46,553 nucleotides of DNA from Candidatus Poseidonia sp. (GTDB taxonomy: Archaea; Thermoplasmatota; Poseidoniia; Poseidoniales; Poseidoniaceae), in contig JAUREJ010000007.1 of NCBI GenBank assembly GCA_030827475.1, forward strand, positions 23,734 to 70,286. Reading direction: 5' to 3'. The notes beneath the pieces are model-generated. The model ran no database searches. It saw nothing but the letters and a program-made list of their open reading frames with translations, and had not been told where the DNA came from. The translations under genes and the position numbers were made by a program. Shown one piece after another: positions 18,363 to 27,561 of the stretch. Position 1 is the stretch's first letter. Every line of letters starts with the position of its first letter.

Positions 18363-21300
18363 ATGCGCGTCGGGTTGATGGTGCTCTTGCTCCTTCTCCC
18401 CCTGGCCTCAGGCTGGCAGACATCTGCGGCGCCCAAGCCAATCCAAGAACTGCCCCCTTTCGGAGAAGAGCGTTTGCTCGTGCTCGAAGAAGGGGTGTGG
18501 ACGTCCCAGGATTGGCAGGAACTCCTTGAGGAAGGGGTTCAACCTCTGCGTTCCGTATCGCCACATGCGCTGCTTGTCTGGACGGGTGGGCCCTTGGAAA
18601 CGATTCCGGGCGTCAAATCATTACCGTTCAACGATGCGGCTTTTTTACAGCCGCTGAGGCCTTTGGACGATGGTGAAATCACCGTTCGCGTTCTTTTCGA
18701 GCCTCGCCTTCCGCCGAGCGCAGTGGCCCAACTGAACAACCACCTCGCCATGGTGACCACATCCGGTTTGCTCGCTCAGGAGGGATGGGCGTCGCTACCG
18801 GCCTCCACGGTCATCACCGTGCCCCGGGCGGTCGCGATGAATGAGCTCCCCCTTCTCGAAGGCGTGTTGTGGGTGGAACCCGTGCTGTCACCGAACGGTC
18901 GCAACGACCAAGCTGCTGAATTGCTCCAAACAGGGTCGTATGATGCTGTTCCGTTCTGGAACGTTGGTTTGAACGGTCACGGCGTCGTGTTGGGGGTTGC
19001 TGATAGCGGCCTTGACGCCGACCACGCTTGTTTTCGAAACGCTACCACGAGCATGAGCACGCATGCAGAACCGAATGCAACCTATCCTGCCGTTGGCATC
19101 TTTGGTGATGACCATCGTAAGATCCTCCACCTCAACACCACCATCGACGGCAACGACACGCCCGGCCACAGCGATTACCGACACGGAACGCACGTCATCG
19201 GCTCTTTGGGGTGCTACGAAGTAGGCGCCCAACGCAACGGCACGTTTCCAAGCAACGGATCCACCTTGGCCTACGGAGCCAAATTGGTGGTTCAAGACAT
19301 CGTATCGGACGACGGTTGGGTGCCGCCTTCCGTCGATGAATTGTTGTGGGAGGCTTCCGCTTACGGTGCCGTGATCCACTCCAATTCGTGGGGCGACGAC
19401 ACCACGGCTTACACGGAACGTACCGGAAGATTTGACGCCTATGCGAGAGCCATGCCTTGGTCCGTCGCCGTGATCGCACCGGGAAACAGCGGAGAGGGGA
19501 TTCTCGAACCGGCCAACGGACGCAACGTGGTTTCTGTGGGTGCGAGCACCAAATCGTCCCAGCCCGAACGGTGGCCGTCCTCATCGTACGGTCCGACCGA
19601 AGCAGGAACGGACGGCGTGTTTGTTCTGGCTCCGGGGGCTACCATCTCTTCAGCGGCTGGCGATGGTTTTTGGTCGTCAAACAACAACAACCTTCGGCCA
19701 TCTTCGGGGACCAGCATGGCGACGCCGCTCGCCGCCTCCGCCATGGGCGTCCTCCAGCAAATGTACGAGGAGGGTTGGCTTCACGGCGCCCATGAGCCGC
19801 TGACGCCCGTGGCGATCAGTGCTCCCGTATGGTCGTCACCGGCCAACCCAGAGACCGTTTTGCTTGGAGAAGGGTTTACGCCATCCGGTTCCTTGTTGCG
19901 CGCCACCGTCGCCATGGCGACCCACCCCCTCGAAGCGTCAGAACGCAACGGCGGCTCGAACACCGACGCCCTTCACAACCCCTATGACGGGTGGGGCGTG
20001 ACGAATTTGTCTCGACTTCTCGATGTTGGGGCGTTGGAAAACGGGACCTCACCCTCCACCTCACTGTGGGTTCATGACAGTTATCGGATGGACAAGGGCG
20101 CCGTTTCAACCTGGTTTGAAACCTATGCGAGCGGAGCCAATAACCTCTCGGGTCTAAGCGAGCTTTCGTGGGACGGGGCAGGTGCAGCAGGGCCGTTTTT
20201 GCAAACCGGTGATGTGTTTGAAGAACGCTTCACACCGATGAATAACCGGTCCGTTCGTTTACGGCTGGCTTTCCCCGCCCAACCCGAACCAGCGATGGTG
20301 GACGACCTCCAATTGCGTGTCGTGCTGGAGAACGGGCGGGTTTTGCTTCCCGACCGTTTGAACGCCGATGGGGAGCCGGTGATGTACAACGCAAGCGTGG
20401 CGGACTTCTACGACACCGATGTGTTTCCAAACTCGAACGAAACGGTGGTCGGCATCGACATTCCCGCACACTACCTCGCCGATGCATCGTGGTTTGACGT
20501 CCAAGTGGTCGCACGCTATGTTCAGCCCGGTGGGCTGCCTGGAACCGTTGGGCTGGACGGGGATGCTGCGGGCTTCAGCCTGGTGGTGCAGGGCGTTGAG
20601 CGTGATGCAACCGACCACCTCGACGGAGACGGTGACGGAGTTGCCAACCTTGACGACCTTTGTCCGTTCGAAGATGCGACCGCTGCTGACGATGACCAAG
20701 ACGGGTGTTTGGACGACGGTGATGGGGACGGCGTAGCCGATCCGTACGATGCATGTCCGGCGGTCAACGCTGCCGAATACGATGCGAACGCGGACGGGTG
20801 TTTTGATGACACCGACAAGGACGGAGTCACCGACAACATCGATGTCTGCGTCACCGAGGACCTTGCATGGCCCGTGACCGCTTCGGGATGCTATCCGGTT
20901 GATGCCCCGCCTTCGCTCTCAGTGTCCTCTTCTCCAGCAAACAACACCACGCTGGACAGAACCGTCCTGATCGAATGGGCGCTTGTGGATGTGGACGGGG
21001 ACGGAGCAAACGTGACCCTCTCCCTCGTCTTCGCCGACCAGCCCAGCACCACGGTAGCAACCTGCAGCCAATTTGTTGAGGTCGCTGAGCCGCATACTTG
21101 CGTGTGGAGGCTTCCCGACGACCTTGTTCCGTTTTATATCGCTGAAGCCCGTTACGACATCATCGTCGGCATTGAAACCGGGAACCGCTCACCCGCCGCC
21201 GTCGACGAGCGGCTGTTCGAGGTCATCGTCGTGAACGTGCTCCTGCCGCAAGCAGCAACCATCGTTCCTGAAGGGGCCGGTGGCGATGCGGGAAGTTCGA

Positions 21301-21461
21301 CCATCATCGTTGGCGTATTCGGTCTCCTGTTTGGCGCGCTCGTGGCTCGGTGGAGTCGATGCCGCCGTCGGGTTGGCGAGCCCCCGGGTGTTGCCGATCC
21401 GTTTCCACGGGCGACGGCGGAGGGTGTGCATCAAGAGGTTCAAGGAAAAACGGCCCCTTGA
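18363..21461 (+). CDS. Secreted subtilisin-family (S8) protease with type 3 calcium repeats
   Basis: A 1032-residue protein with a signal peptide (1-22), a propeptide-like region (about 30-185), then the S8 catalytic domain: D214 in GVADSGLDADH, H274 in HGTHVIGS, N375 in APGNSG (oxyanion hole) and S451 in SSGTSMATP. A beta-sandwich-like region (about 530-740) follows. Next come thrombospondin type 3-like Asp-rich calcium repeats (about 753-855; DGDGDGVADPYDACP and similar), a further Ig-like part, and a C-terminal membrane helix (about 982-1002) with an Arg-rich stop. The enzyme is probably held on the cell surface and digests proteins or peptides from seawater. This fits the protein-degrading lifestyle inferred for Marine Group II. 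Confidence 0.95.
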   Translation: MRVGLMVLLLLLPLASGWQTSAAPKPIQELPPFGEERLLVLEEGVWTSQDWQELLEEGVQPLRSVSPHALLVWTGGPLETIPGVKSLPFNDAAFLQPLRPLDDGEITVRVLFEPRLPPSAVAQLNNHLAMVTTSGLLAQEGWASLPASTVITVPRAVAMNELPLLEGVLWVEPVLSPNGRNDQAAELLQTGSYDAVPFWNVGLNGHGVVLGVADSGLDADHACFRNATTSMSTHAEPNATYPAVGIFGDDHRKILHLNTTIDGNDTPGHSDYRHGTHVIGSLGCYEVGAQRNGTFPSNGSTLAYGAKLVVQDIVSDDGWVPPSVDELLWEASAYGAVIHSNSWGDDTTAYTERTGRFDAYARAMPWSVAVIAPGNSGEGILEPANGRNVVSVGASTKSSQPERWPSSSYGPTEAGTDGVFVLAPGATISSAAGDGFWSSNNNNLRPSSGTSMATPLAASAMGVLQQMYEEGWLHGAHEPLTPVAISAPVWSSPANPETVLLGEGFTPSGSLLRATVAMATHPLEASERNGGSNTDALHNPYDGWGVTNLSRLLDVGALENGTSPSTSLWVHDSYRMDKGAVSTWFETYASGANNLSGLSELSWDGAGAAGPFLQTGDVFEERFTPMNNRSVRLRLAFPAQPEPAMVDDLQLRVVLENGRVLLPDRLNADGEPVMYNASVADFYDTDVFPNSNETVVGIDIPAHYLADASWFDVQVVARYVQPGGLPGTVGLDGDAAGFSLVVQGVERDATDHLDGDGDGVANLDDLCPFEDATAADDDQDGCLDDGDGDGVADPYDACPAVNAAEYDANADGCFDDTDKDGVTDNIDVCVTEDLAWPVTASGCYPVDAPPSLSVSSSPANNTTLDRTVLIEWALVDVDGDGANVTLSLVFADQPSTTVATCSQFVEVAEPHTCVWRLPDDLVPFYIAEARYDIIVGIETGNRSPAAVDERLFEVIVVNVLLPQAATIVPEGAGGDAGSSTIIVGVFGLLFGALVARWSRCRRRVGEPPGVADPFPRATAEGVHQEVQGKTAP

Positions 21462-21569: not shown

Positions 21570-22574
21570 ATGAGCGACCGCCTATATGTTGGAATTGACC
21601 TAGGAACCTACCAATCAACCATCGCCTCAAGCGCTGGAAAATTGCACACCATTGAGACCGTCGTTGGTCGCCCAAAAGACCCTGTCGCACGCAATTTCCT
21701 CGGGCGAGATGTCCTCTTTGGTGACGACGCTTTGAAGAACAAACTCGCTTGCAACCTGTATCGCCCTATGGCCGCTGGTGTTACCCAAGACGACGAAGCC
21801 AACTTGGCCGCTGCCAAGGCCTTCGTTTCCCACCTTCTTGAAACCGTAGACCCTGAGGAGTTCGACGAAGTTCTCGGCGTCATTTGTTCGCCGAGTCACG
21901 TTTCGTTCACGGACAAATCCAACCTCGTTGCCACCCTTCGAGGTCAGGTCAACGCCATCATGGTCGTCACGGAACCTTTCGCTACCGGCTACGGCATCGA
22001 CCAGCACATGGGATCCATCGTGGTCGACATCGGCGCAGGAACTACCGACATCGCAAGGCTGTACGGAACCTTCCCAACCGACGACGATCAAGTAACCATC
22101 ACCGAAGCCGGAGATTGGCTTGACAACCAACTGATGACGCTCATCCAAAAGAAGTACACCGGCGCCCAAGTCACGAAGGACATGGTTCGCAAGTGGAAGG
22201 AGGCCTCCTCCTATGTCGGCGGCGATGTTCGGGAAGTCACGGTTGACCTCTCTGTGGAAGGAAAGCGCCAGGTTGTTGACATCGGCGACTTGATTTTGGA
22301 AGCATGCGAATTGATCATCCCGAAGATTGGAAACGCCATCAAGAAAATTGTCGCTGGCGCTGACCCCGAATACCAACAGTTGCTCCGCAACAACATCATC
22401 CTCTCCGGCGGCGGCTCCTTGATCGAAGGCATCTCGGTGCGCATCGCCAAGGAAATCTCCGACATCGGCGATGTCAAAGTTTGGTGCATTGAAGACCCCA
22501 TCAACTCGGTGGCTGCAGGCGCTCTCAAACTCGCCAGCGAAATGCCAGATGATATGTACACTGCTATCAAGTGA
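21570..22574 (+). CDS. Actin-like ATPase of MreB/MamK appearance
   Basis: The 334-residue protein has the full actin-fold nucleotide site: phosphate 1 GIDLGTYQST (8-17), catalytic-type Glu in TEPFATGYG (E135), phosphate 2 VVDIGAGTTDIA (151-162) and the adenosine motif ILSGGGSLIEG (277-287). It lacks the peptide-binding domain of Hsp70, and its length is that of MreB, ParM or MamK. From memory, the stretch of GYGID, VDIGAGTTDI, then DDQVTITEAGDWLDNQL most resembles MamK-type filaments of magnetosome bacteria. No magnetosome gene is seen nearby, so a general filament role is more likely. A coiled-coil gene follows at 22667 on the same strand. A T-rich stretch at 21464-21472 separates it from the protease gene. 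Confidence 0.85.
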   Translation: MSDRLYVGIDLGTYQSTIASSAGKLHTIETVVGRPKDPVARNFLGRDVLFGDDALKNKLACNLYRPMAAGVTQDDEANLAAAKAFVSHLLETVDPEEFDEVLGVICSPSHVSFTDKSNLVATLRGQVNAIMVVTEPFATGYGIDQHMGSIVVDIGAGTTDIARLYGTFPTDDDQVTITEAGDWLDNQLMTLIQKKYTGAQVTKDMVRKWKEASSYVGGDVREVTVDLSVEGKRQVVDIGDLILEACELIIPKIGNAIKKIVAGADPEYQQLLRNNIILSGGGSLIEGISVRIAKEISDIGDVKVWCIEDPINSVAAGALKLASEMPDDMYTAIK

Positions 22575-22666
22575 TACGGCGTTTGTTGCGGGGTGTGAAA
22601 TACCCCCTGTGAACCCAGCGCTGTGCGGTAAGGTTCAAGTGTGGTAAATCTGCGATGCGTTGCCGT

Positions 22667-23935
22667 ATGGCCGTAGAGAGTTCCTCACCAGGTGGCGTCC
22701 GACGAGTCGGAGGCACGACGAACGACGAGCGAGCGGCCCTCGAAGGGATGCTCAAAGGTTACCCCGTCGAACAACTCGTCGACGAAGTGCTGGTGGCGTG
22801 GGATGAACTGGGCAAACGCAACGACGAACTTGTCACCGTCAAACAACGGCTTCGAGTGGTCGAACTCGATTTGGCCGAGCGTCACGATACCGTCGCACCC
22901 GAGGTTGCTCGTCTTGCAGAGGCGGAGCAAACGCTGAAGGACAACGACGCTAAAATCATCCACTTGGAACGAATGCTCGAGGACACCAGGGCGGAATTGG
23001 TGGCCCAGCAATCCTCCCTCTCCCACGAAGAGCGAACGTCCATGGAGCGCGAAGTCGCTCAACTCCGCGACCTCACCGCTCAACAAGACGACGTGATCGG
23101 AGAATTGGAAGGGCGCATGGCGCAAATGGTCACCGCCCTCGAGAAGGCCGCCGATGCTGGCTTGACCTCCGTCACCGCTGAAGAGGTTCGTTTGCTCAAA
23201 CAACAAGTTGACGAGCGGCAACGCCAGCTCGACGTGGAACGGGCTGCTGCAGAGGCTCTCGAAGAAGAGCGCCAGCGCCTTCGCGACATCGCCGACCGAC
23301 TCCGAGGTTTGTTGGACGCCCGCGACCGCCGGCTCGGGGAATTGGAGGAACAATTAGAGCGCGTGATGCAAGGACCCCGCTCCGTTTCGGCAGAACACGA
23401 TTACTTGGTTGAACAAATCGAGGAGCTCAAGCGACGCTTGTTGGAGCGAAATCGCGAATACGAATCCCTGCGACGTCGAGAGCGCCGGTTGCATAACGAC
23501 GTGTTTGAGCGCGACGAGCGTTTGCAACAGATGACCCTCACGATGACCGATTTGGAAGCCGCACTCCAAGACCGAACGGCGGAGCTCCGAGAGCTCGAGG
23601 AACAACGAAGTTCCATGGAACATGAACTTCACTCGGCTCGACGCAGCGAGCGAACCCGAGAGGTGGTTGGCCGAGTCTTCGCAGACTCTCTTTCGCTGGT
23701 CCGCAGTCACGAGAGTCGAGAGTTGAAACGCGAATTGTACGCCAACGCACCCGATGTTGAGCGCACCATCAGGGCCCCCTCTTCCGACGATATGGCGAAA
23801 CTCGCCGAAGGTGAGGAAATGGCGTTGTCAACCGAGGAAACCGTGATTGAGAAAGGAATTGACGTTGACGATGTCCGCCCTCCCTCGCCCGGTGGAACCG
23901 GCGACCCGGTGTTGTTTGACGACGAAACCGAATGA
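22667..23935 (+). CDS. Long coiled-coil protein
   Basis: From ATG 22667 (422 residues; ATG 22655 would add four) the protein is dominated by coiled coil from about residue 35 to 345, with dense Glu/Arg/Gln heptads (ELEEQLERVMQ, QIEELKRRLLERNREYESLRRRERRL). A tail of about 75 acidic, Pro-containing residues ends in VLFDDETE. No ATPase head or hinge is present, so it is not an SMC or Rad50 protein. A TATA-like GGTAAATC lies 21-28 bases before the preferred ATG. It follows the actin-like gene by 92 bases on the same strand, across a small GGGGT/ACCCC hairpin (22590-22606). A role as filament adaptor or organiser is inference. Confidence 0.75.
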   Translation: MAVESSSPGGVRRVGGTTNDERAALEGMLKGYPVEQLVDEVLVAWDELGKRNDELVTVKQRLRVVELDLAERHDTVAPEVARLAEAEQTLKDNDAKIIHLERMLEDTRAELVAQQSSLSHEERTSMEREVAQLRDLTAQQDDVIGELEGRMAQMVTALEKAADAGLTSVTAEEVRLLKQQVDERQRQLDVERAAAEALEEERQRLRDIADRLRGLLDARDRRLGELEEQLERVMQGPRSVSAEHDYLVEQIEELKRRLLERNREYESLRRRERRLHNDVFERDERLQQMTLTMTDLEAALQDRTAELRELEEQRSSMEHELHSARRSERTREVVGRVFADSLSLVRSHESRELKRELYANAPDVERTIRAPSSDDMAKLAEGEEMALSTEETVIEKGIDVDDVRPPSPGGTGDPVLFDDETE

Positions 23936-26694: not shown

Positions 26695-27561
26695 ATGAAA
26701 ACTGAAACCTTCTCAAAGACAACGAGCCTGCTTTTGATCGCCACACTCACCCTCGCTTTGGCCGGTACGGTCAGCGCTGAGATCGTGAACCCAGCGGAGA
26801 AATACGATGGTGAGCCACTGAAGTTGCTCACCTTCTTCCTGTTCTTCGTTGGTTACATCTCCATGGGTGCTGCTTTCGTCTTCTTCATGTCGGAGCGCAA
26901 CTCCGTCGCACCGCAATACCGAACCACGATGACCATCTCGGCTCTTATCGTCGGTATCGCTGCCTTCCACTACTACTACATGCGCGGCGTGTATACCGAA
27001 CTCGGCGACGTTTCGGTCGAGTACCGCTACATGGACTGGATCATCACCGTCCCGTTGATGGCTCTCAAGTTCCCTTCCCTTGTCGGAAAGGACGCTATCA
27101 CCGACGAAAAGTTCCTCGGAATGGGCTTCACCGGTATTTGTTTCACCGGTGCCCTCATCATGATCGGATTCGGTTACCTCGGCGAAGCCGGTGTCCTCGG
27201 TGAAGTCATGGGTTCTTCCGCTGGCGGATGGGCTGGACTCATCCTCGGTGGTGTCGGCTGGGCTATGATTATCGTGGCAACCGGTACCCCTTGGTCCTCC
27301 GGTAAGGGTGTCGACAACAGCAAGATTGCTCCTGAGCTCCTCTGGAGCGCCAACGCTCTGCGCTGGTTCATCGTGGTTGGTTGGATCATTTACCCCATCG
27401 GCTACCTCTGGTCCCCCGGTGCTGACCTCGGCCTCGGTGAGGGTAACCAAGAACTTCTGGCTGTGTTCTACAACATTGCCGACATGATCAACAAGATCGG
27501 CTTCGGTATCGTTGCATGGATGGGTGCCAAGAAGGCTACCGAAGCACTCGCAGCCGAGTGA
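26695..27561 (+). CDS. Proteorhodopsin-type light-driven ion pump (DTK motif)
   Basis: From ATG 26695 (288 residues) a signal peptide (1-28, cut after VSA) precedes seven membrane helices. Helix C reads RYMDWIITVPLMALKF: the proton acceptor is D114 and the second key residue T118, but the donor position is K125 instead of Glu. M122 stands at the spectral-tuning site (Leu in green, Gln in blue proteorhodopsin), so green absorption is expected. H92 corresponds to the His that pairs with the acceptor, D263 to the second counter-ion and K267 (FYNIADMINKIGFG) to the retinal Schiff-base lysine. It is thus probably an outward proton pump with a lysine donor, as known for Exiguobacterium rhodopsin. 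No carotenoid or retinal synthesis gene lies in the window. Confidence 0.96.
   Translation: MKTETFSKTTSLLLIATLTLALAGTVSAEIVNPAEKYDGEPLKLLTFFLFFVGYISMGAAFVFFMSERNSVAPQYRTTMTISALIVGIAAFHYYYMRGVYTELGDVSVEYRYMDWIITVPLMALKFPSLVGKDAITDEKFLGMGFTGICFTGALIMIGFGYLGEAGVLGEVMGSSAGGWAGLILGGVGWAMIIVATGTPWSSGKGVDNSKIAPELLWSANALRWFIVVGWIIYPIGYLWSPGADLGLGEGNQELLAVFYNIADMINKIGFGIVAWMGAKKATEALAAE

Follow-up and report, generated by a model that had tools for sequence, protein, structure and literature searches.

Prokaryotic actin filaments have been described together with proteins that act on them, as in the crenactin-arcadin-2 and ParM-ParR systems, where adaptor or regulator genes act on the actin filament; accessory proteins organise the filaments in MamK systems as well, MamK being the actin with which bacteria align their magnetosomes. 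Other MamK orthologues have been expressed in a Magnetospirillum mamK deletion strain (PMC10653835). Partners of MamK-type filaments include the coiled-coil proteins Mad20, Mad23, Mad25 and Mad26 of deep-branching magnetotactic bacteria (PMC12748827). Relatives of MamK are also found in non-magnetotactic cells, namely BeeR of Verrucomicrobiota, an actin that forms three-stranded tubules and to which no function has been assigned (PMC11929497), and among the haloarchaeal actins salactin has been reported as nearest to MamK (PMC10746226).

Here we compare these systems with a locus in a 46,553-nucleotide stretch of DNA (the window) from Candidatus Poseidonia sp. (contig JAUREJ010000007.1), a member of Marine Group II (MGII). 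In the surface ocean, MGII are described as the most abundant archaea of the plankton, and to our knowledge no member is in culture; searches of the open literature turned up no description of proteins like MamK or MreB in them. From named records with closely similar paralogues and from genome sizes (about 1.9 versus 1.4 Mb; PMC6864105), we take the window's family to be Ca. Poseidoniaceae (MGIIa) and its sister family to be Ca. Thalassarchaeaceae (MGIIb). The comparison shows that nearly all genomes of one of these two families have a MamK-like filament gene, with no magnetosome gene among its neighbours in the window, and it reveals a natural deletion, i.e. a sister clade without both actins and without exactly the matching part of the putative partner protein. 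With this deletion, and with protein fragments defined by it, the role of MamK-like filaments in the absence of magnetosomes can be tested. New here are the two actins in nearly every genome of the window's family, the confinement of both actins and of a zinc-ribbon gene to early-branching genera in the sister family, and a truncated coiled-coil protein encoded at the same locus in genera that lack actins. The features of the window on which the analysis centers are:

18363-21461, plus strand: subtilase with thrombospondin-3-like repeats, 1032 residues (profile matches and locus comparison)
21570-22574, plus strand, stop codon included: MamK-like actin of 334 residues, here termed alpha (NCBIfam MamK profile, PDB search and AlphaFold2 fold match)
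22632-22644, plus strand: conserved element GGTTCAAGTGTGG, just 5' of the coiled-coil gene, in its long and most of its short versions
22655-23935, plus strand: long helical coiled-coil protein, 426 residues as listed; probable true start at the ATG at 22667
22718-23155, plus strand: amino-terminal module of the coiled-coil protein (approximately residues 22-167), the sole part kept in actin-less relatives
23156-23932, plus strand: carboxy-terminal part of the coiled-coil protein (approximately residues 168-426), missing wherever there are no actins

The alpha gene is thus followed, after 80 nucleotides, by the coiled-coil gene, and as both are kept as orthologues across genera neither is a chance open reading frame. 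Around this group lie genes for L18Ae, prefoldin alpha, FtsY, GGGP synthase, an ABC transporter and a bacteriorhodopsin-family protein, the last of these (of the proteorhodopsin type, 26698-27561) a few genes downstream. In the loci compared, the subtilase is the gene 5' of the actin, also where the coiled-coil gene has moved, and it may play a part of its own in the actin module. A search of the 10 neighbouring genes at this locus with a profile library recovered no magnetosome gene; the same library, applied to a Magnetospirillum locus as a control, recovered MamE, MamM, MamN, MamO and MamP above their cut-offs.

Placement of the two actins

Examination of the nucleotide-site motifs of alpha (D10-G12-T13, E135-P136-F137, D153-IGAGTT-D160 and G280-G281-S283) across 27 relatives showed them to be invariant or nearly so, with D10, G12, T13, E135, D153, G155, D160, G280, G281 and S283 unchanged throughout. 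With these motifs and a score of 81.2 bits against the Pfam MreB_Mbl profile (cut-off 27), alpha belongs to the actin/MreB/MamK superfamily (PF06723). Its top NCBIfam profile is MamK (NF040964; E=7.5e-102, 340.8 bits, residues 5-333), followed by BeeR (211.7 bits), MreB (80.5 bits) and salactin (29.6 bits). Likewise, a sequence search of the PDB recovered MamK (5jyg; E=4.7e-65 over residues 3-329) and BeeR (E=1.5e-41). An AlphaFold2 model (pLDDT 88.5, pTM 0.86), in which the fold begins at residue 4, finds its best match in a MamK filament chain (PDB: 5ljv/5jyg; TM 0.92, rmsd 1.9, 34% identity) and its second in BeeR (PDB: 8r2n; TM 0.87). By profile and predicted structure alpha is, then, an actin-fold ATPase with intact nucleotide-site motifs that is closest to MamK. 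The sequence-only reading, made before any database search, had claimed both that the gene keeps these motifs and that it resembles MamK; both statements hold up.

Although the resemblance to MamK is full-length in profile and fold, the NCBIfam MamK cut-off of 400 bits is missed by the alpha (326-341 bits) as well as by the beta sequences (359-377 bits; see below). In a 96-sequence tree MreB forms its own clade (100/100), outside which alpha falls, and alphaproteobacterial MamK forms another (100/100); a firm placement in MreB, one of the two outcomes that the sequence-only reading had named as refuting it, was thus not observed. The alpha and the beta sequences of MGII each form a clade (100/100 for both) and pair as sisters (89/98); Methanoperedens branches next (82/89). 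A thinned tree lends this archaeal grouping no support and does not reject it either (AU p about 0.43), and a union of alpha with alphaproteobacterial MamK is disfavoured (AU p=0.017). Because it scores below the NCBIfam cut-off and its grouping with the alphaproteobacterial proteins is disfavoured, alpha is not a magnetosome-clade MamK; on these comparisons it is a deep MamK-like lineage lying outside that clade.

Other family assignments were tried and rejected. As an MreB, alpha scores 80.5 and 69.9 bits with two NCBIfam profiles whose cut-offs are 293 and 365.75, respectively. As a BeeR (NF053558) it falls far under the 530-bit cut-off and is devoid of the disordered amino-terminal extension of 30-50 residues. 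Salactin and volactin are archaeal actins too, but alpha lies below both Pfam cut-offs (25.4 against 27.1 and 25.4 against 35 bits) and far below that of NCBIfam salactin (400 bits). Finally, its ParM score is 15.9 bits where 417 are required, and its neighbourhood is one of chromosomal housekeeping genes rather than a plasmid partition locus.

A second actin, beta, is encoded in the same genome (contig C58 of genome G000, locus L083); it has 341 residues and is 48% identical to alpha:

L083:7439-8452: gene for approximately 338 residues with zinc-ribbon motifs, adjoining the beta actin
L083:8584-9606: beta actin, same-genome paralogue of alpha

The zinc-ribbon gene is found directly upstream of beta in the loci read, and its product may be the partner of beta. 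At least one actin of the alpha/beta type occurs in 143 of the 146 family genomes (21 of 21 good genomes), and most carry both. In the one-contig genome G011, beta (L077:8436-9457) is split over two reading frames, so that it is either interrupted by an indel from sequencing or has recently become a pseudogene.

The coiled-coil protein and its truncation in the sister family

The start conserved among homologues of the coiled-coil protein is M5, at 22667. Its AlphaFold2 model displays four long helices (residues 38-121, 124-167, 175-238 and 244-364) and a disordered acidic tail; residues 38-364 have a heptad-like hydrophobic periodicity near 3.5, above that of 2000 out of 2000 shuffles, and the last 45 residues contain 14 D/E versus 3 K/R. 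The same-strand coiled-coil protein of roughly 420 residues with an acidic tail that had been read from the sequence is thus confirmed. The most conserved segment (residues 239-300, with 34 of 62 positions invariant) lies inside the part lost in actin-less relatives, and a PGG motif in the acidic tail is invariant. Profile searches recovered no family beyond generic coils, a fold search with the model recovered no PDB match, and no homologue was found in the surroundings (about 6 kb) of 81 other MamK-like loci. MamJ and the above Mad proteins are comparable in that they organise cargo as partners of MamK-type filaments and are acidic or coiled-coil, but a pairwise comparison with the gene occupying the mamJ position in the Magnetospirillum locus L179, which itself has no family match, showed no similarity (E=3.8).

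The coiled-coil gene is present in 52 of 58 family genomes, including all 18 good ones, and lies directly downstream of the actin in nearly all genera. Where a family genome has both genes (n=51), they are tightly adjacent in 45 cases, 1.5-4 kb apart in three and unlinked in three (genus g5). It is also the next gene in the actin-bearing loci read from the sister family, with at least one gap of 2.8 kb. The proposal of a conserved pair of a MamK-like actin and a coiled-coil protein therefore stands as regards resemblance and synteny, a coiled-coil neighbour that is not conserved, the second refuting outcome named in the sequence-only reading, having likewise not been observed. It needs amending in three respects: the actin is not a MamK of the magnetosome clade, there is a near-universal paralogue, beta, with another putative partner, and the coiled-coil protein is not an actin partner only (see below).

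Immediately upstream of the coiled-coil gene, an element of the CAAGGTTCAAGARTGG type is strongly conserved at the same place in loci L084-L102 and L194-L202. We rejected GGTTCAAG as a general promoter element, since the 46 kb window contains a single instance of the pattern, at the coiled-coil gene. The coiled-coil gene has, in this element, a conserved upstream sequence of its own, which suggests that it can be expressed alone.

Among 108 sister-family genomes, actins were recovered in 27, all of genera g15, g17, g19 and g97, and the zinc-ribbon partner of beta in 26, each of them actin-bearing. The long form of the coiled-coil protein occurs in 20 genomes of these same four genera, and in none of the actin-less genera among the 108 genomes was a full-length version found. 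A further 37 genomes, belonging to the seven other genera and without exception actin-free, have only a short homologue matching the first ~20-165 residues. Eleven of these short genes, read with their surroundings, code for 131-166 residues and occupy the same locus as the long form, adjoining the GGGP synthase gene and near L18Ae where the latter is seen; most keep the upstream element CAAGGTTCAA, and neither an actin nor a subtilase is present at these 11 loci. Thus, the earlier proposal that the coiled-coil protein is a partner of the actin does not hold as its sole role, given that its first ~150 residues and the upstream element persist without a MamK-like actin.

A tree of five flanking genes unites the actin-less sister-family genomes in one clade (100/99), with the actin-bearing ones as a basal grade. 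Hence, the simplest account is that one branch saw the loss of the two actins, of the zinc-ribbon gene and of ~260 carboxy-terminal residues from the coiled-coil protein. The subtilase was lost on the same branch, except for a stray 3.7 kb subtilase contig in genome G166 that is probably foreign. As this co-loss happened once, on a branch where genomes shrank generally, and does not amount to many independent cases, it is suggestive rather than statistical proof, and the departure of the subtilase in the same event means that the lost coiled-coil part could be tied to something else. Truncation to a retained amino-terminal module is, nevertheless, more specific than the loss of a gene. In two apparent exceptions, G149 and G300, the contig stops where alpha would lie, and hence they provide no evidence of its absence; G149 is also without beta and its zinc-ribbon partner.

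A predicted filament system and competing explanations

We propose, with a probability of roughly 55%, that these genes constitute an archaeal MamK-like filament system, in which an alpha filament and a coiled-coil adaptor position or tether a cell structure and beta supplies an additional arm. Alpha would bind and hydrolyze ATP and polymerize to a parallel MamK-like filament. The coiled-coil protein would act as the filament adaptor, a role that we infer from synteny and co-loss: its residues ~168-426, with the core at 239-300 and the PGG tail, would engage the filament, and its amino-terminal module (~22-167) would dock to a cell structure that actin-less relatives possess too. Filament and adaptor could then position or tether the docked structure in a coccoid cell of ~0.7 um, and beta with its zinc-ribbon partner might form a parallel or co-polymerising arm. 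What was observed on the side of a filament is the fold match, the intact motifs, the family-wide presence, the synteny, the co-loss and a partner truncated exactly where the actins are missing; the unlinked genes of g5, the 1.5-4 kb gaps elsewhere and the coiled-coil gene's own upstream element count against the adaptor reading.

In its working such a system would most resemble MamK with its accessory proteins, i.e. MamJ and the Mad coiled-coil proteins, from which it differs in its archaeal host and in having two paralogues with different partners. Crenactin and ParM belong to other actin families, and no sequence related to their adaptors was found. That the most conserved half of the coiled-coil protein occurs only in relatives still possessing the filament gene suggests that the tiny round cells of MGII have an internal positioning system not described before. 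As a tentative extension, whose chances we put a little short of even, MGII may have inherited a two-actin MamK-like cargo-positioning cytoskeleton that disappeared as a whole, in a single event, on the streamlined branch of MGIIb, with the cargo-side module of the adaptor left behind.

The most serious alternative, which we nonetheless consider unlikely, is that actin and coiled-coil protein are neighbours without any connection, whose order is conserved for other reasons and which were both trimmed by genome reduction in the sister family. The whole stretch with L18Ae, prefoldin, FtsY and GGGP synthase is indeed syntenic, the co-loss happened only once, an upstream element belongs to the coiled-coil gene itself, and g5 has the two genes apart. 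However, both genes remain full-length in g5 despite being unlinked, the full-length coiled-coil form is confined to genera with actins, and the gene was cut down to its amino-terminal third rather than lost, its most conserved segment being in the part removed.

Another reading is that the filament positions the archaellum or a polar adhesion structure, since archaellins occur in all genera of the family and in part of the sister family (PMC6461757, PMC6336850). We regard this as improbable: two g17 genomes have both actins and no archaellin was found in them, and genera g14 and g21 present the reverse combination, which together disfavour the archaellum as the sole cargo.

A filament determining cell shape, of the MreB or volactin kind, is more improbable still. 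These actins share a superfamily with alpha, and volactin was reportedly found in a study of the determinants of cell shape in Haloferax, but the MreB profile score and the separate MreB clade speak against such an identity. Moreover, the cells of MGIIa and MGIIb are reported as ~0.7 um cocci alike in morphology (PMC6864105), though most MGIIb genera are without these actins, which disfavours a role in shape. Equally improbable is a chromosomal rather than plasmid DNA-segregating actin with a ParR-like adaptor, for which the filament-plus-adaptor design and the conserved chromosomal gene could be invoked, given the poor ParM score, the lack of plasmid context and the fact that profiles, the AlphaFold2 model and the fold search reveal no ParR-type DNA-binding fold in the coiled-coil protein.

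MamK-like genes beyond Marine Group II

A scan of named genomes showed MamK-like genes to be widespread, with representatives in Planctomycetota, Nitrospirota, Desulfobulbaceae, Acidobacteriota and Methanoperedens. Only one of 2.9 million viral contigs, a 49.8 kb IMG/VR contig, carries such a gene (L184:4001-5020). This gene groups with Planctomycetota and not with MGII; accordingly, we rejected a viral origin of the MGII actins, and the contig itself could be viral, proviral or cellular DNA that was wrongly classified. A record titled Deltaproteobacteria AH-558-G13 (L180) has an actin that scores like the MGII sequences, and this assembly is probably mislabelled or contaminated. In other archaea, MamK-like actins were seen in two Methanoperedens genomes (L146 and L154) and in another Thermoplasmatota genome of 5 Mb (G241, locus L103), whose actin, at 435.7 bits, lies above the MamK cut-off.
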